45,416 bases of DNA from Candidatus Woesearchaeota archaeon CG10_big_fil_rev_8_21_14_0_10_33_12. GTDB lineage: Archaea > Nanobdellota > Nanobdellia > Woesearchaeales > CG1-02-33-12. The stretch lies in NCBI GenBank assembly GCA_002762865.1, contig PCYE01000012.1, positions 879 to 46,294 on the forward strand, in the 5' to 3' direction. This document shows, one piece after another, positions 1,156 to 34,747 of this stretch; the stretch's first letter is position 1; each line of letters begins with the position of its first letter. The notes under the pieces were generated by a model. That model worked only from the letters and a program-made list of their open reading frames with translations, was not told the origin of the DNA and did not search any database. The translations under genes were made by a program, and so were the position numbers.

Positions 1156-2073
1156 ATGTTTGTTATAAAAAAAGAAAAAAACCAGATATTGTCATTGCCT
1201 GTAAAAGAGATAACAGCAAAAGAGGCAAAAAACTTCAGTTCTGACCTAGCACTGAAAATTCTTAAGCTATTAATAAAAAAGCCAATGTACCCAATAGAGC
1301 TTGCAAAAGAGCTTAAGGTTCATGAGCAGAAGATATATTATCACATAAGGAACCTTGAGAAATCAGGGATAATAAAAATTAACAAAAAAGAAATAAAGCA
1401 GGGAGCTGTTGCAAAGTATTACTATTTAGACAAACCGGCTTTTGTAATAAGATTAAAAGAATTTGAAGAAACACAGAAAATAATTCCAAAAAGCAGTTCA
1501 AAATTCTTAGAGCCTTTTATAAAAAATGGAGAACTTGACGCAATGATAATAGTTGGCTCTCCTGACCCCCACGGACCTGAAAAAGCCAGGTCAAGGGACG
1601 GCTATTATGGAATTGACCTTGCATTATTCTTAGGAACATTCCTCAACTATGTTCCAGACCTAAATGTAAGGCTTGACACAGAAGTAAGGCAGGAAGAGCT
1701 TAAAAACAACCTCATACTTTTAGGCGGTCCTGTGGTAAACAACATAACCAAAAAGGTTAATGAAAAAATGCCAATATTCTTTGATAAGAACAATCATTGG
1801 GCTATAAAATCAAATATATCCAAGAATGTTTACCCAACAGATGAAACAGGGCTTATAGCCAGCTTCAAGAACCCGTTTAATAAAGAAAAAAGTATACTTC
1901 TTGTTGCTGGAAAAAGGTATTCAGGAACAAGGGCTGCAATAATAGCCTTCCTGAAATATTTCAAAGAAGTATCAAAGGGCAATATCCACAACAACAAAAT
2001 AAAGGCAAGAGTTGTTGAAGGCGTAGATCTTAATTCTGATGGAATCATTGATGATGTTGAATTTAGGGAGTAA
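1156..2073 (+). CDS. ArsR-like winged-helix protein with C-terminal S-layer-like domain
   Basis: N-terminal wHTH (LLIKKPMYPIELAKELKVHEQKIYYHIRNLEKSGII); C-terminal IIVGSPDPHGPEKARSRDGYY.. LLGGPVVN.. LLVAGKRYSGTRAAI. Confidence 0.7.
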   Translation: MFVIKKEKNQILSLPVKEITAKEAKNFSSDLALKILKLLIKKPMYPIELAKELKVHEQKIYYHIRNLEKSGIIKINKKEIKQGAVAKYYYLDKPAFVIRLKEFEETQKIIPKSSSKFLEPFIKNGELDAMIIVGSPDPHGPEKARSRDGYYGIDLALFLGTFLNYVPDLNVRLDTEVRQEELKNNLILLGGPVVNNITKKVNEKMPIFFDKNNHWAIKSNISKNVYPTDETGLIASFKNPFNKEKSILLVAGKRYSGTRAAIIAFLKYFKEVSKGNIHNNKIKARVVEGVDLNSDGIIDDVEFRE

Positions 2074-3499
2074 TATTAACAATCTCTTGCTGAAACTTAG
2101 CAAAACTATTTTCTGCTTCTTTAATAAACTCCTGTTCTCTTTCTGTAGGTATTACTGCTCCTGCTGCGCTTAAATGACCGCCTGCCTCACCATCAACCTT
2201 CTCAGCAATATTTGAGATGATTTTAAACAAGTCAGCATCTGCCTTTCGGTCAGATATTCTCAGGCTTACTTTTGTCTTTCCATTTAACAATCGGGCCATT
2301 GACATTACAAGCGTAATTTTATCAAAACCATTTGAAGATGAAATAATTGAGGCAAGAGTTCCGATCATTGTTGCCATTACATTATCCTTAGCATTTATTA
2401 TAAGCATACCTTTTTTCTTAATTATATCTTCAGAATCCTCATTCTCTTCATACCATTTCATTGTCTTAACAATCTCCCTTTTATACTTTGAGAGATTAGT
2501 TATTGCTTTTTTCTTTATTTTTTCATCATTTAAGCATGCCCCTATTCCTAGAGACGCCTTGTTAAGCCTTCCGCAGGCATTCAACAGTGTGGAAAACTCT
2601 TTTGCATCCCTTAGAGGAGATTCCTTTTCTTCGTCACGCAGAATATAGACCTGACCAAAAATATCCTCTGGCTTTTCTTCATCAAGCCTTTTCATTATAA
2701 TGCCAGCAGATAGCTTTTTAATTTCATCCCCTGTAAGATTAACAAGCTTTTTCCACTCATTTCCCTGTTTTGGGTTTATGTCCAACTGCTGCAAAAACTG
2801 TATTGCATTGCTTTCAGAGCCGGTTACACCTGGTATGTAAACATCTGTGCTGTACTGCAATAGCCTGTATAGCGGTTTTGTCTGTGCTCCAAAAACCTTT
2901 AATCCCCTAATCACTTTTATTTTTCCTTTTGTCTTGGCAGTTTCAAGAATTTCATTATTAAGCCTTGAAAAACCATTATTTTCCTGTACATCACCTATTG
3001 CACCAATGATAGCAATATGAGCCATATCTTCATTTTTCCTGTTAAGGTATTTTGCAAAGAAATAAACAACACCTGCTCCTGAAACCTCCTTTGTTCCGTC
3101 AATTCCAAAAAGATGTGGATTAACATGGACTATATTATTGCCAATATCAGCATCCTCTGGATCGTGGTGGTCAAGAATAAAAACCTCCTTGCCTGCAAGC
3201 AAACTCTTTATGTCATTTAGCTTTCCAGAGCCAATATCAGTAAAGAAAAAACAGCTGTAATTCTCCTTTGATATTTCTGATATAACCTTGCTGTTCAACT
3301 GCTGGACAATAGAAACAGAGTATTTTCTGTTCTCAAGATTCAATGCATTAATCAGTATAGAGCAGGCGCTGATGCCATCAGAATCAAGGTGGGATATAAT
3401 CCTTATCTTCTCTTTTTTATCTAATTTTTTAAATCTTTCAGCTGCCTGCTTTACAGATTCTTTAAATTTTTTATAGTTATCCAATTTTATCCCAATCAT
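2063..3499 (-). CDS. DHH-family phosphoesterase (archaeal RecJ-like)
   Basis: ISHLDSDGISA, LDHHDPED and DHHA1 GGHLSAAGA motifs. Confidence 0.88.
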   Translation of the reverse strand: MIGIKLDNYKKFKESVKQAAERFKKLDKKEKIRIISHLDSDGISACSILINALNLENRKYSVSIVQQLNSKVISEISKENYSCFFFTDIGSGKLNDIKSLLAGKEVFILDHHDPEDADIGNNIVHVNPHLFGIDGTKEVSGAGVVYFFAKYLNRKNEDMAHIAIIGAIGDVQENNGFSRLNNEILETAKTKGKIKVIRGLKVFGAQTKPLYRLLQYSTDVYIPGVTGSESNAIQFLQQLDINPKQGNEWKKLVNLTGDEIKKLSAGIIMKRLDEEKPEDIFGQVYILRDEEKESPLRDAKEFSTLLNACGRLNKASLGIGACLNDEKIKKKAITNLSKYKREIVKTMKWYEENEDSEDIIKKKGMLIINAKDNVMATMIGTLASIISSSNGFDKITLVMSMARLLNGKTKVSLRISDRKADADLFKIISNIAEKVDGEAGGHLSAAGAVIPTEREQEFIKEAENSFAKFQQEIVNITP

Positions 3500-21114: not shown

Positions 21115-22164
21115 TTATTTTGCAGGCTTTTTTTCCTGTGAAATCTGTAACTCTTTTCTTATGTTTTCAACAAACTTTTCAAAATCCTTATTTTTTATAC
21201 AGGCACCGCAGGCATACTCATGGCCACCACCATAGCCGTCAATTCCAACAAGTGCTTTTTTCAGTATGTTTGAGACTGAAAGATGGTCTGATGAGCGAAG
21301 GCTGCATTTCATCTCACCGCCTTTCTCACGTGCAACTAAAATGAGTTTTTTTGGAAACCTGTAAAGAAGCTCGTTTGACAAGTCACCTGTAAAACTCATT
21401 CTGTTTGAGTAAATGAATAAAATCATTTTATCATCATCAATATTTTTAAGAGCTTTTTTAAGCATGATTTCATATTCTTCTTCTATTTTTTTGAATCTCT
21501 TAATAATGAATCTTGCCTGTGCTGTCTCTCCGTTAAGCAGTTCATAAGGGGTTTTGATTCTTGTCAATATTTTAACGCAGCTTAAAACATCTGATATTTT
21601 TCCCTTGAGAATAAAGGACAATATTCTTACAAGCTCTCCGAGTTTTGTTTCATACAGGGCTTTTTCTGGTTTAGTTATTTTTGCCGGCAGCAAATCAGGA
21701 TATTCTTTTGAGAACTTTGCTGAAAAATCAGGCAGAGACCAGTCAGCAACTGCTCCGCATGCTGCAATCCACAAGTCCTGCTTAACAACCCTATAACAAA
21801 TGCATGATGCAGGCTCTCCAAATCCGTCTTTTCTTGAGTTATAGTATTTTGTTCCGCTGTTCTTGATAATGTTATGATGGTCTATCCATATTATTGGAAC
21901 TTTTACAGCATCAATAAAATCAGGGCTTACCATTGGCTTGTCAACTATAAAAACCTTGTCCGGGCTGTAATCCTCAACAGTTTTTATAAAAATTGGCTTA
22001 AGCTCAGGGCTGCTCTTTACAACAACACCCTTTCCTTCTCTTTTATACCTATAAAGCAAGATAAAAGAGCAAAGCCCGTCAGGGTCATCATCAAAAAAGA
22101 ACAAAGGTCTCTTGCAGCTGTCAAGCTCTTCTCTTATTTCATTGTAGTGTTTTTCTGTAAGCAT
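21115..22164 (-). CDS. DHH-family phosphoesterase (second paralog)
   Basis: FFDDDPDGLCSF, IWIDHHNI, GYGGGHEYACGA; start MLTEKHY at 22164. Confidence 0.85.
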   Translation of the reverse strand: MLTEKHYNEIREELDSCKRPLFFFDDDPDGLCSFILLYRYKREGKGVVVKSSPELKPIFIKTVEDYSPDKVFIVDKPMVSPDFIDAVKVPIIWIDHHNIIKNSGTKYYNSRKDGFGEPASCICYRVVKQDLWIAACGAVADWSLPDFSAKFSKEYPDLLPAKITKPEKALYETKLGELVRILSFILKGKISDVLSCVKILTRIKTPYELLNGETAQARFIIKRFKKIEEEYEIMLKKALKNIDDDKMILFIYSNRMSFTGDLSNELLYRFPKKLILVAREKGGEMKCSLRSSDHLSVSNILKKALVGIDGYGGGHEYACGACIKNKDFEKFVENIRKELQISQEKKPAK

Positions 22165-22267
22165 ATTAAAAATAAAAAACATCTCTTATTTAAAATTATG
22201 TTTTAGAAATTGTTATTAACCTGATTAATTATCATTTTTTACTAAAAAATGGTAACAAAACAAAAAA

Positions 22268-22276
22268 CTTAAATAG
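22268..22276 (+). promoter_or_regulatory. TATA-like element CTTAAATAG for leaderless uORF and cysteine synthase transcript
   Basis: About 27 nt upstream of ATG 22299, preceded by an A-rich BRE-like tract. Confidence 0.5.
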
Positions 22277-22298
22277 TAGTTGTGTTAAACCAGTTAAC

Positions 22299-22367
22299 AT
22301 GAAACAGCTAAATTCAATATTCAAAAGATTTAATAGGGTTTTCTTAGCTGAAGCTGTTTGTTGTTAG
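22299..22367 (+). CDS. uORF leader peptide MKQLNSIFKRFNRVFLAEAVCC*
   Basis: 23-codon ORF ending in tandem TGT codons, upstream of cysteine synthase. Confidence 0.5.
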   Translation: MKQLNSIFKRFNRVFLAEAVCC

Positions 22368-22446
22368 TTCTTGATTCATTGTCTTTAATTTAAATTATTT
22401 TCTTGGCTTTTGTCTAAAAATTTTTAAAATAAATATGAGGTAAAAA

Positions 22447-23346
22447 ATGGAAAATCTAAAAAAAATTGAGCAAGCCTTTGATGTGTTGAGCATTGTAGGA
22501 AAAACTCCTATGATTAAAATAAGAAAAATACATGCAAAGCTCGAGACAACAAACCCAAGCGGAAGTGTAAAAGACCGCATGGCTGATTACATGGTAAAAA
22601 AAGCAGAGCAAAGAGGTGAGCTAAAGAAAGGCAGCAGGATAATTGAGGTTACAAGCGGCAATACTGGAATAGCTTTTTCAATGATCTCAGCAATAAAGGG
22701 CTATAAGTTTACAGCAGTAATGCCAGAGCATATGAGCGTAGAAAGAATAAAGATGATAAAAGCATTTGGGGCTGATGTTGTATTAACCCCAAAAAAGGAG
22801 GATATGAATGGAGCAATTAGGAAATACAATGAGCTTGTGAGGAAATATCCTAATGCATGGCTTCCAAACCAGTTTGAGAATCAGGACAACATAGAGGCTC
22901 ATGAACTTGGATTGGGAAAAGAGATAATAGCTCAGTTCAAGGGCAGGATAGATGCATTTGTTGCAGGAATCGGAACAGGCGGGACTTTGCTTGGTGTTGC
23001 AAGGGCACTTAAAAAAGAATTTCCTAATGCAAAAATAATTGGTGTTGAGCCAGCTGAATCAGCTGTTTTATCAGGAGGGAAACCAGGCATGCATAAGATA
23101 CAGGGAATCGGCGAGGGCTTTATTCCAAAGCTTGTTAAGGACAACATGAATATGATTGATGAGGTTATTGCAATAAAAAGCAGCGATGCTATCAATATGA
23201 GAAAAAAACTTGCAGAAGAGAATGGAATATTTGTTGGAATAAGCTCAGGAGCAAATCTGCTGGCAGCAATTAAAGCAAGGGAAAGATATGAGAATGTGAT
23301 TACTGTCCTGCCAGACAGAGGAGAGAGATATTTAAGTGGAAATTAA
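22447..23346 (+). CDS. cysK: Cysteine synthase (PLP-dependent)
   Basis: NPSGSVKDRMADYMV, VTSGNTGIAF, GIGTGGTLLGV; SD GAGGT upstream. Confidence 0.92.
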   Translation: MENLKKIEQAFDVLSIVGKTPMIKIRKIHAKLETTNPSGSVKDRMADYMVKKAEQRGELKKGSRIIEVTSGNTGIAFSMISAIKGYKFTAVMPEHMSVERIKMIKAFGADVVLTPKKEDMNGAIRKYNELVRKYPNAWLPNQFENQDNIEAHELGLGKEIIAQFKGRIDAFVAGIGTGGTLLGVARALKKEFPNAKIIGVEPAESAVLSGGKPGMHKIQGIGEGFIPKLVKDNMNMIDEVIAIKSSDAINMRKKLAEENGIFVGISSGANLLAAIKARERYENVITVLPDRGERYLSGN

Positions 23347-29898: not shown

Positions 29899-31311
29899 AT
29901 GAGCCTAAAACTGTACAATACATTAACAAGGAAAAAAGAAGAGTTCAAGGAAATAAAGAAAGGATATGTTAATATTTATAGTTGTGGTCCTACTGTCTAC
30001 AACTTTGCCCACATAGGAAACTTCAGGGCAAATATATTTGCAGATCTTATAAGAAGATACATAAAGTACAAGGGATACAAGCTAACTCATGTTATGAACA
30101 TTACTGATGTTGATGACAAGACAATAAGGGACTCAAAAAAAGAAAATCTTTCTTTAAAAGAATTCACAGAAAAATACACAAAATACTTTTTTGATGACTT
30201 AAAAACCTTAAATATAGAAAAAGTAGAGGTTTATCCAAGGGCAACAGAACATATTAAGGAAATGATTAACTTGATTAAAAAGCTTCTTGAAAAAGGCTAT
30301 GCCTATAAGGCAGATGATGCAATATATTATGACATCAAAAAATTCAAGGAGTATGGCAAGCTTTCGCATTTAAAGATAAGCGAGTTAAAAGCAGGAGCAA
30401 GAGTTTGCCAGGATGAATATGACAAAGAGCATGTAAATGATTTTGCACTATGGAAATTCTGGGACAAAGAAGATGGAGATGTTTTCTGGGAAACAGAGCT
30501 GGGAAAAGGACGCCCTGGATGGCATATTGAATGCTCTGCAATGAGCATGAAGTATTTAGGAGAGACATTTGACATTCATACAGGAGGGGTTGACTTGATA
30601 TTTCCACATCATGAGAATGAAATAGCCCAAAGTGAGGCTGCAACAGGAAAAAAGTTTGTTAATTACTGGCTGCATAACGAGCATCTGCTGGTTGACAGCA
30701 AAAAGATGAGTAAAAGCCTTGGAAACTTTTACACATTAAGGGATTTATTAAAAAAAGGATACAGCCCAAGGTCAATAAGATATGTCCTGATGGCAACCCA
30801 TTACAGGCAGAAGATGAACTTCAGCTTTGAAGGCCTGAATGCAGCAGACAACGCAATAAATCGCCTTGATGAATTCATGGCAAAACTAGATAATATTAAA
30901 GGAGACAGGCATAACCCAAAAATATCCGAACTTATTGAAAAAGTAAAAAGTGATTTTGAGGATGCAATGGATGATGACCTGAATGTTTCAATTGCTTTGT
31001 CAGTTATGTTTGATTTTATGAAGAAAATAAACACCTTCATAATGAATGATAAAATGAGCAGGAAAGATGCTGAAAAAGCAATTGCCTTAATGTATGATTT
31101 TGATTCTGTTTTTGGAATTCTAAAAAAGGAAGAAAAAAAAGAAGAGATAAACAAGGAAATAAAACAATTAATAGAAAAAAGACAGGAAGCAAGAAAAAAC
31201 AATGACTATGAGTTAGCAGACAAGATAAGAGACCAGCTAAAGGAAAAAGGCATAATTCTCAAGGACACAAAAGATGGTGTCAGATTGGAAAAAATAACTA
31301 CTTCAAAATAG
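29899..31311 (+). CDS. cysS: Cysteinyl-tRNA synthetase
   Basis: YSCGPTVYNFAHIGNFR, HIECSAM, HTGGVDLIFPHHENE, KKMSKSLGN. Confidence 0.97.
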   Translation: MSLKLYNTLTRKKEEFKEIKKGYVNIYSCGPTVYNFAHIGNFRANIFADLIRRYIKYKGYKLTHVMNITDVDDKTIRDSKKENLSLKEFTEKYTKYFFDDLKTLNIEKVEVYPRATEHIKEMINLIKKLLEKGYAYKADDAIYYDIKKFKEYGKLSHLKISELKAGARVCQDEYDKEHVNDFALWKFWDKEDGDVFWETELGKGRPGWHIECSAMSMKYLGETFDIHTGGVDLIFPHHENEIAQSEAATGKKFVNYWLHNEHLLVDSKKMSKSLGNFYTLRDLLKKGYSPRSIRYVLMATHYRQKMNFSFEGLNAADNAINRLDEFMAKLDNIKGDRHNPKISELIEKVKSDFEDAMDDDLNVSIALSVMFDFMKKINTFIMNDKMSRKDAEKAIALMYDFDSVFGILKKEEKKEEINKEIKQLIEKRQEARKNNDYELADKIRDQLKEKGIILKDTKDGVRLEKITTSK

Positions 31312-32314: not shown

Positions 32315-34747
32315 TCACATCTCAATTCCGAGTTTAATATCTTCTTGGCATTCAATCTCTGCTTTATCGCCAAAAACAATTTCTTCTGCTTTTACTGTTT
32401 TTTTTATGTCTTTTAGCACGGAATTAAGGTCTTTCTTTGTTTTTTCATCGCACTTAATAATTAGTGTTTTAATAGGCTTGTTCAGTGAGAGGTTTTTTTC
32501 TGACTTGAACTTTCTCACAGCTGAAATAATACTGACTGCATTATCACCTGCAAGCTCTGCTTTTTCATCAGCAAGTCCTTTTTGGTATTTAGGCCAATCA
32601 GAAACATGAATGCTTTTCAAACCCTCAATCTCTGCAAAATAAAGGTGATAGATTTCTTCTGTAATATGCGGTAGTATGGGGGCCATTAACTTTAGTATTG
32701 CTAAAGTTGTATTATACAATGTATAATGTGCTGAGTCAACTGCTTCCTTGCTATAATCAGCTGAATTATATAACCTATCCTTAACAATCTCTAAATAATT
32801 ATCACAGAACTGCTGCCAGAAAAACCTTTCTGTTTCTGATTTTGTTCTTGAGAAATCATATTCTAAAAATGAATCTGTGCAGGCCTTAATAAGCTTGTTA
32901 AGCTTTGAGAATATCCATTTATCAATTATCTCAAGCTTTGTTTTCTTTGGATTATAACCTTTAAGGTTCATTATTGCAAACTTTGAAGCATTCCACATCT
33001 TTGTCATCATCTTCTTTCCAGAAACAAGCTCTTTTTCCTGGTATGGAATATCTGAGCCAAGCTTTGCAGATGCTGCCCAGAATCGCATTGCATCTGATCC
33101 GTGCTTTTCAAGAACAACCTTTGGCTCAACAATATTTCCCTTGCTCTTGCTCATCTTTTTTCCCTTTGGGTCAAGTGCATGGCCGTTTATCATCACATCT
33201 TTCCATGGCAGCTTGTCTTCATGCAAAAGCATTTTTACAACAGTGTTGAAAAGCCAGAAAGTTATTATGTCATGCCCATTGCTTCTCAAGGACATTGGAA
33301 TCATCTTATTAAAGAATTTATCATCTTCTTTCCACTTTGTTGCAATCATCGGGCTTAAGCTTGAGGTTGCCCATGTGTCAAATACATCCTTCTCAGGAAT
33401 TAATTTATCACAGCCGCATTTTGGGCATTTATTTACAGGCGGCTTGTCTGTTGTAGGATCAACAGGCAAATTTTCCTCTTTTGCAAGAATTACTTCATCA
33501 CATTTTTCGCAATACCAGACCGGAATTGGAACACCATAAAAGCGCTGCCTTGAAAGGCACCAGTCCCATTGCAGTCCATTTACCCAGTTATCATATCTGA
33601 CCTTCATATGCTTTGGATACCAGTTTAGTTTGTTTCCAGCTTCCAAAAGCTTGTCTTTTATATCAAGATATTTCAAAAACCATTGCTTTGTAACCAGGAA
33701 CTCGACCTCTGTTCCGCAGCGCTCATGAACATTAAGTGTGTGGGTTATCTGCTCCTGCTTTACCATAAAGTTATTTGATTTTAAATCCTCAATTATTTCT
33801 TTTCTTGCGTCATTAATTTTAAGCCCTTTATATTTTCCCGCAAGTCCATTCATAACTCCATCAATAGTTATGCTTATTTTCAAAGGCAGATTATAAGCGC
33901 TCCACCATTCAATATCAACCAAATCACCAAATGTACAGCACATAACTATTCCAGTTCCTTTCTCAGGGTCTGCTCTTTTATCTCTCTTTATTGGAACCTT
34001 ATAATCAAATAAAGGAACAACTGCATTTTTTCCTATCAAGCCCTTATATCTTTTATCATCTGGATTTACAAAAACAGCTACGCATGATGGCAATAGCTCT
34101 GGCCTTGTTGTTGCTATTTCTAATTTCTTGTTAGAATTTTCAAGCCCAAACAGGATATGATTAAAAAAGCTTGTCTCTTCTTTATCTTCTAATTCAACCT
34201 GTGCAATTGCTGTCTGGCACTTTGGGCACCATATTGTCGGGGCCTCCTTTCTGTACTCGCGCCCTTTTCTGTATAAATCTAAAAATGACCTTTGGGATGT
34301 CTTTCTGCACCATTCGTCAATTGTCCTGTAATTAATGGACCAGTCTGGCGATATTCCTAATGATGACCAGTCTTTTTTAAGCTCTTTTTCAGCCTCCTTT
34401 GTTTCATTAAGGCATATCTTTATGAATTCAGGCCTTGGAATATCCCTTGCTCTTATGTTGCATTTTTTCTCAACAAAACGTTCTGTTGCAAGCCCATTGT
34501 CATCAAAACCGAATGGATAAAATATATTTTTTCCAAGCATTCTCTGAAATCTCATAACATAGTCTGCCTGTGAGTATGCCATTGCATGGCCTATGTGCAT
34601 CTTTCCTGAAACAGTCGGAGGTGGAGTGTCGCATGAAAACGGTTCTTTCTTTGACTTAGGGTCAAATCTGTAAATTCCCTGTTTTTCCCAATAGGCCTGC
34701 CATTTCTTTTCTGCTTCTTTTGGCTCATAATGCTTTGATAGTTCCAT
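32315..34747 (-). CDS. valS: Valyl-tRNA synthetase
   Basis: PPPTVSGKMHIGHAM, KKMSKSKGNIVEP. Confidence 0.97.
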   Translation of the reverse strand: MELSKHYEPKEAEKKWQAYWEKQGIYRFDPKSKKEPFSCDTPPPTVSGKMHIGHAMAYSQADYVMRFQRMLGKNIFYPFGFDDNGLATERFVEKKCNIRARDIPRPEFIKICLNETKEAEKELKKDWSSLGISPDWSINYRTIDEWCRKTSQRSFLDLYRKGREYRKEAPTIWCPKCQTAIAQVELEDKEETSFFNHILFGLENSNKKLEIATTRPELLPSCVAVFVNPDDKRYKGLIGKNAVVPLFDYKVPIKRDKRADPEKGTGIVMCCTFGDLVDIEWWSAYNLPLKISITIDGVMNGLAGKYKGLKINDARKEIIEDLKSNNFMVKQEQITHTLNVHERCGTEVEFLVTKQWFLKYLDIKDKLLEAGNKLNWYPKHMKVRYDNWVNGLQWDWCLSRQRFYGVPIPVWYCEKCDEVILAKEENLPVDPTTDKPPVNKCPKCGCDKLIPEKDVFDTWATSSLSPMIATKWKEDDKFFNKMIPMSLRSNGHDIITFWLFNTVVKMLLHEDKLPWKDVMINGHALDPKGKKMSKSKGNIVEPKVVLEKHGSDAMRFWAASAKLGSDIPYQEKELVSGKKMMTKMWNASKFAIMNLKGYNPKKTKLEIIDKWIFSKLNKLIKACTDSFLEYDFSRTKSETERFFWQQFCDNYLEIVKDRLYNSADYSKEAVDSAHYTLYNTTLAILKLMAPILPHITEEIYHLYFAEIEGLKSIHVSDWPKYQKGLADEKAELAGDNAVSIISAVRKFKSEKNLSLNKPIKTLIIKCDEKTKKDLNSVLKDIKKTVKAEEIVFGDKAEIECQEDIKLGIEM

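Follow-up and report, generated by a model that had tools for sequence, protein, structure and literature searches.

The progress of a ribosome over a run of cognate codons reports the supply of charged tRNA; this is the principle of attenuation. Control of genes by leader peptides has long been known in bacteria, whereas it is apparently unreported in archaea. In the bacterial trp, his, leu and ilv attenuators a regulatory codon run precedes genes that make or charge the amino acid. T-box riboswitches act on aminoacyl-tRNA synthetase genes and respond to uncharged tRNA. In the E. coli tnaC/Rho system (PMC8429421) a held ribosome covers the site of a termination factor right behind the stop codon, with no competing hairpin. 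Hairpin-free poly-Cys leaders of actinobacteria were predicted in 2005 (PMC1262725), and leaderless poly-Cys sORFs of mycobacteria, the precedent named in the initial annotation of our locus, were reported to be active attenuators by Canestrari et al. 2020 (cited in PMC13236596). For archaea, no transcription attenuation or antitermination was known as of 2021 (PMC8448881), and we found no later report in openly accessible papers.

The locus described here lies in the window, i.e. the whole 45,416-nt stretch of DNA that was analysed, from a genome of 1.05 Mb in 53 contigs. The gene content of the window is archaeal (archaeal alaS, fibrillarin-like and NOP56-type proteins, archaeal-type valS). 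The locus has the following parts (here and below, peptides are given up to the stop codon):

22268–22276, forward strand: TATA-like box CTTAAATAG, starting at −31 from the uORF ATG
22299–22367, forward strand: leader uORF MKQLNSIFKRFNRVFLAEAVCC, 22 codons, predicted to be leaderless, with its ATG as predicted transcription start
22302–22359, forward strand: pairing arms, present here, no feature of the leader family
22359–22364, forward strand: two adjacent Cys codons, TGT TGT, where the ribosome is predicted to stall when Cys-tRNA is scarce
22365–22367, forward strand: uORF stop codon TAG
22368–22381, forward strand: conserved post-stop RNA element UUCU-UGAU-UCAUUG (DNA TTCTTGATTCATTG), directly 3′ of the stop
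22398–22401, 22408–22411 and 22421–22425, forward strand: short T-runs, a candidate termination region between element and cysK, judged from the sequence
22437–22441, forward strand: Shine–Dalgarno-like (SD-like) GAGGT of cysK
22447–23346, forward strand: cysK, cysteine synthase A, the predicted controlled gene, above cut-off for TIGR01139 (362 bits, cut-off 351) and TIGR01136

On rechecking the sequence, the uORF, the Cys codons and the arms were all where the initial annotation had placed them. Its distance of about 27 nt from TATA box to uORF holds for the box centre (the box starts 31 nt before the ATG), its spacing of about 80 nt between the Cys-ended uORF and cysK is 79 nt counted from the stop, and TIGR01139 agrees with its naming of cysK. 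The post-stop element is absent from it. Over the whole 45-kb window, on both strands, no other short ORF has a TATA-like box at about −30 together with CATTG behind; no leader was found for cysS (29899–31311), downstream of the NOP56 and fibrillarin genes, nor for valS (32315–34747), near cysS on the other strand.

A protein search across 359 genomes of the same archaeal order detected cysK in 61. At the 64 cysK loci preceded by 200 nt or more of sequence, we counted, free of hand curation, ATG-started ORFs of 4–40 codons located no more than 300 nt upstream whose last two codons were both Cys. Such a uORF was found at 28 of the 64 loci, against 0.23 in dinucleotide shuffles, and at least three Cys among the last four codons at 23 loci, against 0.05, with loci taken as independent although some are related (e.g. 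the MIRQDYYRC.CCC leaders of one genus). Any other amino acid formed the terminal pair at 0–2 of the 64 loci. By these counts the Cys-ended uORF upstream of cysK is not a chance occurrence. Leaders of relatives carry two to six Cys codons, TGT and TGC mixed, for example:

L020, a close relative: MKQHNTNQVESNYSYSAEAVSCCC, ending ..SAEAVSCCC
L029: MQSNIICCC
L031: MLKAVCCC
L038: MINAICCC
L050: MTKTTCCCDCCCC
L051: MYRYCCCCC
L115: MKQQNMNLKKSSKTILIEISCCC, with TATA and TTCT

Since synonymous codons are mixed and the N-terminal peptides differ while the terminal residues are the same, selection is on the amino-acid run and not on a DNA repeat or a peptide. Conservation in close relatives had been set beforehand as a test of the uORF, and the Cys codons are indeed kept in the closest ones, L020 and L115. 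The latter is a record labelled Candidatus Diapherotrites archaeon, its cysK being 70% identical; it has the only convincing leader among the 79 cysK loci examined in a genome collection (the 78 others nearly all bacterial). Outside the order, within the same class, a search for the Cys element gave chance-like matches only, none with a proper in-frame leader. At the search sensitivity used, the Cys system thus looks confined to the order plus L115. A plain poly-Cys pattern, TGYTGYTGYTRR, gave too many frame-shifted chance matches and was replaced by TATA-containing patterns; the pattern TGYTGYTRR..TTCT, run on three other named genomes, was too loose to be informative. In L051 two poly-Cys leaders stand in tandem, at −284 and −175 before cysK.

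Like the mycobacterial sORFs, the archaeal leaders are short and, by prediction, leaderless, have Cys codons at the stop, precede cysteine genes and show no obvious terminator hairpin. The archaeal leaders differ in their archaeal promoter and ribosome, in the UUCU..UCAUUG element, in having cysS and tRNA-Cys as targets and in their Leu and Val versions. No sequence relation was seen in a comparison that covered the 79 collection loci; convergence is likelier than common descent.

A set of leaders was curated by hand from 87 candidates by removing 27 weak ones (no TATA, no element) and adding five. The start of the TATA-like box falls between −31 and −29 in the resulting 65 leaders, two-Cys leaders having entered the set only with a TATA box or element and some leaders having been found by a TATA-containing pattern; an SD-like site precedes the leader ATG in 1 of the 65. 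As a check on this bias we took 31 leaders with at least three Cys found by protein search alone: 24 have a TATA box at −33 to −27 versus 1–6 at shifted offsets, with a small residual bias, the ATG with a box having been preferred where several were possible. Archaeal transcription starts about 25–27 nt past the TATA box centre; as the spacing fits this distance and SD-like sites are nearly absent, we infer that the leader ORFs are leaderless. The leaderless start that had been predicted for the window uORF gains from this, its TATA box being at the conserved distance and an SD being absent.

Behind the codons the leaders share an element whose consensus (logo) is UUCU-N-UCAUUG-UUUUAG, located 5–15 nt past the cognate codons. 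TTCT occurs no more than 16 nt behind the codons in 55 of the 65 leaders (shuffled mean 5.8, maximum 14), CATTG in 34 (mean 0.9, maximum 4) and the two in this order in 27 (mean 0.06, maximum 1); the protein-search subset has TTCT in 25/31 and CATTG in 15/31. In L019 the Cys run is not terminal: Trp and other codons come after it, so that the element falls inside the ORF, at an unchanged distance from the Cys codons, which argues that its position is set by the codons and not by the stop.

Cysteine synthase is not the sole target. A pattern made up of TATA, ATG, three Cys codons and a stop, with no gene specified, was run over 351 genomes and detected in-frame leaders upstream of cysS (TIGR00435 above cut-off); gene-blind and element searches recover leaders of cysS, tRNA-Cys, cysE and cysK. 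The element search gave a leader before a cysE-like gene in L357, while in L207 a cysE-like gene lies between leader and cysS; both genes match Pfam hexapeptide transferases, and from sequence features and our own reading we take them to be cysE. A tRNA-Cys(GCA) gene starts 24–38 nt past the Cys run in ten loci, in two of them with introns, and lies farther downstream of the leader in two more (ARAGORN). Introns are predicted in the leader-downstream tRNA-Cys genes of L038, L201, L206 and L358. L030 has leader, tRNA-Cys, cysK and cysS in this order. In L208 (673–1518) and L209 (434–1285) a PIG-L deacetylase with similarity to bacillithiol BshB lies between the leaders and cysS, a possible sign that these archaea have a low-molecular-weight thiol; L208 also has two tandem poly-Cys leaders, one at 494–517 and a second ORF ending at 627.

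A codon-blind search with TTCT and CATTG returned mostly chance matches, yet it gave a poly-Leu leader (L401, below). The leaders for amino acids other than cysteine are:

L401, 2752..2720, reverse strand: MKTTILLLLL, TATA at −31, element TTCTTTCATTG, before an archaeal leuS; Leu codons TTG CTT CTC CTC CTG
L404, 81–119, forward strand: MNNLGLALLLLL, poly-Leu, TATA at −30, UCAUUG, before leuS
L407, 1379–1423, reverse strand: MKLNGLDLLLLLVL, poly-Leu, TATA at −30, UCAUUG, before leuS
L437 (G111:C40), 1531–1566, reverse strand: MFKTVVVVVVG, poly-Val, TATA at −30, UCAUUG, before valS; Val codons GTG GTC GTA GTT GTG GTG, four of them different

The leuS of L404 is the second leuS of the genome of L401 (G180), each copy having its own leader. 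The assembly breaks the valS reading frame of L437 close to an A-run. L404 and L407 came from a survey of leuS genes, which also gave weaker candidates in L417 and L427; no leader turned up in 40 regions lying before ileS-, valS- and other leuS-like genes. Among the loci examined, no non-Cys leader besides the four listed combines TATA, CATTG and at least four identical residues among the last six, three of the four loci having been chosen for holding leuS. A second codon-blind scan covered 134 genomes, its matches being listed and translated by eye and by script. Among the matches listed, eight in-frame leaders of at least six codons end no more than 9 nt before TCATTG, with the very short MRSS and the five-codon-plus-Met MYCKSC left out: four Cys, one Leu, one Val and two without a run (MYAYMLKKYI and MSASCSITGR). 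An amino-acid run thus ends six of these eight listed leaders, and in all six cases the gene behind is one for the amino acid of the run. MYAYMLKKYI (G062:C1:22434–22503, reverse strand), a leaderless-type ORF, has three Tyr, no terminal run, and TTCATTG right behind the stop. A scan for leaderless ORFs in eight genomes revealed by eye no further amino acid. The leaders would form a widespread archaeal family of starvation sensors, for cysteine and apparently for leucine and valine too.

The 22-codon ORF is probably the sensor of an amino-acid attenuator, in which a stalled ribosome would shield the element from premature termination or cleavage. Sensing by ribosome stalling on the Cys codons is strongly supported by the sequence comparison: as in the bacterial attenuators, a short upstream ORF repeats the codons of the amino acid with which the genes behind it are concerned. 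Less certainly, control would be exerted through termination by FttA. As predicted from TATA spacing and the lack of an SD, RNA polymerase would start at the leader AUG and the ribosome would load on the 5′-end. With ample Cys-tRNA the ribosome would pass the Cys codons and leave at UAG, exposing the U-rich Cys-codon tract and UUCU..UCAUUG; the transcript would be terminated or cleaved there, and cysK would not be made. With Cys-tRNA scarce it would stall at the Cys codons, with its front over the element about 10–12 nt downstream, and transcription would proceed into cysK. The T-box riboswitches differ in that the archaeal leaders would sense by translated codons; an Rfam search of region 22100–22600 had no match at E ≤ 1, hence no T-box structure. 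From tnaC, where free tryptophan is sensed via the nascent peptide and acts as inducer, the archaeal leaders differ in that they are predicted to sense uncharged tRNA by codons. The conserved element does sit directly behind the codons, as in a tnaC/Rho-type arrangement, with both the factor and its blocking predicted. To our knowledge, archaea have no Rho; we propose FttA instead.

The terminating factor would most likely be FttA/aCPSF1, with no hairpin required. According to PMC11616081, FttA contacts U-rich RNA 30–36 nt behind the RNA 3′-end and cuts about 23 nt behind it. It is favoured because (UGU)n followed 7–13 nt on by UUCU..UCAUUG fits this published footprint, and a ribosome held at the Cys codons would hide the U-rich tract as well as the element. 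Mutual exclusion of ribosome and FttA/aCPSF1 on the elongation complex has been proposed, with no example (PMC8116511, PMC11616081), and the leaders are natural compact substrates for this question. Leu and Val runs contain less U than UGU does, which suggests that the signal would reside in the element and not in the codons. Three points count against the favoured reading: a recognisable leader is missing at about half of the cysK loci, the window leader carries two Cys codons only, and we know of no evidence that UCAUUG is an FttA signal.

Control of transcript elongation or cleavage is favoured because tRNA-Cys often starts so near the codons: 24–38 nt is too close for a terminator hairpin, and SD masking cannot control a tRNA. 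It is this tRNA-Cys, the untranslated first gene in at least ten loci, that makes it rather unlikely that the stalled ribosome acts by making the start site of the next gene more or less accessible (SD masking or coupling) with transcription unregulated. An SD-like site is present at 24 of 54 downstream cysK/cysS genes, the mycobacterial analogue is called translational in PMC13236596, and at loci without tRNA-Cys such control may be tenable; yet leader-to-gene distances spread widely, the 65 leaders have no conserved SD-sequestering fold, and the conserved element adjoins the codons, not the SD.

The same geometry as for termination, with an element that is sequence-specific and unstructured, would suit a switch of RNA stability, UUCU..UCAUUG being an endonuclease site protected by the stalled ribosome and not a termination site. 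We consider this improbable: we know of no nuclease with UUCU..UCAUUG specificity, and FttA is itself an endonuclease, so that the proposal shades into the shielding reading.

The competing hairpins of the initial annotation, in which the 5′ arm (AAACAGCT, 22302–22309) pairs either with TTAGCTG (22344–22350) or with AGCTGTTT (22352–22359) as an antiterminator/terminator switch, have very little chance of being the mechanism. The arms are real and the pairing AAACAGC/GCTGTTT is retained in L020; however, that identity is explicable by the shared residues MKQ..AEAV, the 8-nt arms were found in the window and L020 only, and many leaders are just 6–12 codons long. Over the 65 leaders the mean folding z-score is +0.29 (below −2 in one leader), and complementarity of 5′ and 3′ arms equals that of shuffles. 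Trp-type exclusive hairpins and a terminator with U-run were thus not found in the folding of the 65 leaders, nor do they fit tRNA-Cys starting 24–38 nt past the codons; in this, and in being leaderless, the archaeal leaders differ from the bacterial trp, his, leu and ilv attenuators. Of the cysteine attenuator proposed there, the sensing of Cys codons is thus well supported, by conserved leaders and cognate genes, and the hairpin switch is not supported, there being no folding excess. A small Cys-rich functional or metal-binding peptide, suggested by the clustered Cys residues, deserves practically no credence, since in the homologous layout Leu takes the place of Cys at leuS genes and Val does so at valS, the N-terminus is not conserved between families, the run ends at the stop and many products have 6–12 residues.

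Returning to the shielded element, we come close to accepting, while leaning slightly against, a wider statement: that archaea independently evolved a hairpin-free attenuation in which leaderless Cys, Leu and Val ORFs would gate FttA termination at UUCU-N-UCAUUG-UUUUAG and so control synthetase, tRNA (including tRNA-Cys) and biosynthesis genes. Amino-acid regulation in these small-genome, mostly unculturable archaea would gain a mechanism, and one whose codon-sensing leader stands even before a tRNA gene.

The motif is usable for annotating more aminoacyl-tRNA synthetase and biosynthesis genes. In L032 a poly-Cys ORF, MYTYDCFCCC, lies at −49 to −16 before cysK without TATA or element, possibly a different, coupled mode. 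In L356 (G175:C1) a Cys-Cys leader with the element precedes an ORF at 2279–3031 on the reverse strand (250 aa, no Pfam match), a candidate for a new cysteine-related gene.
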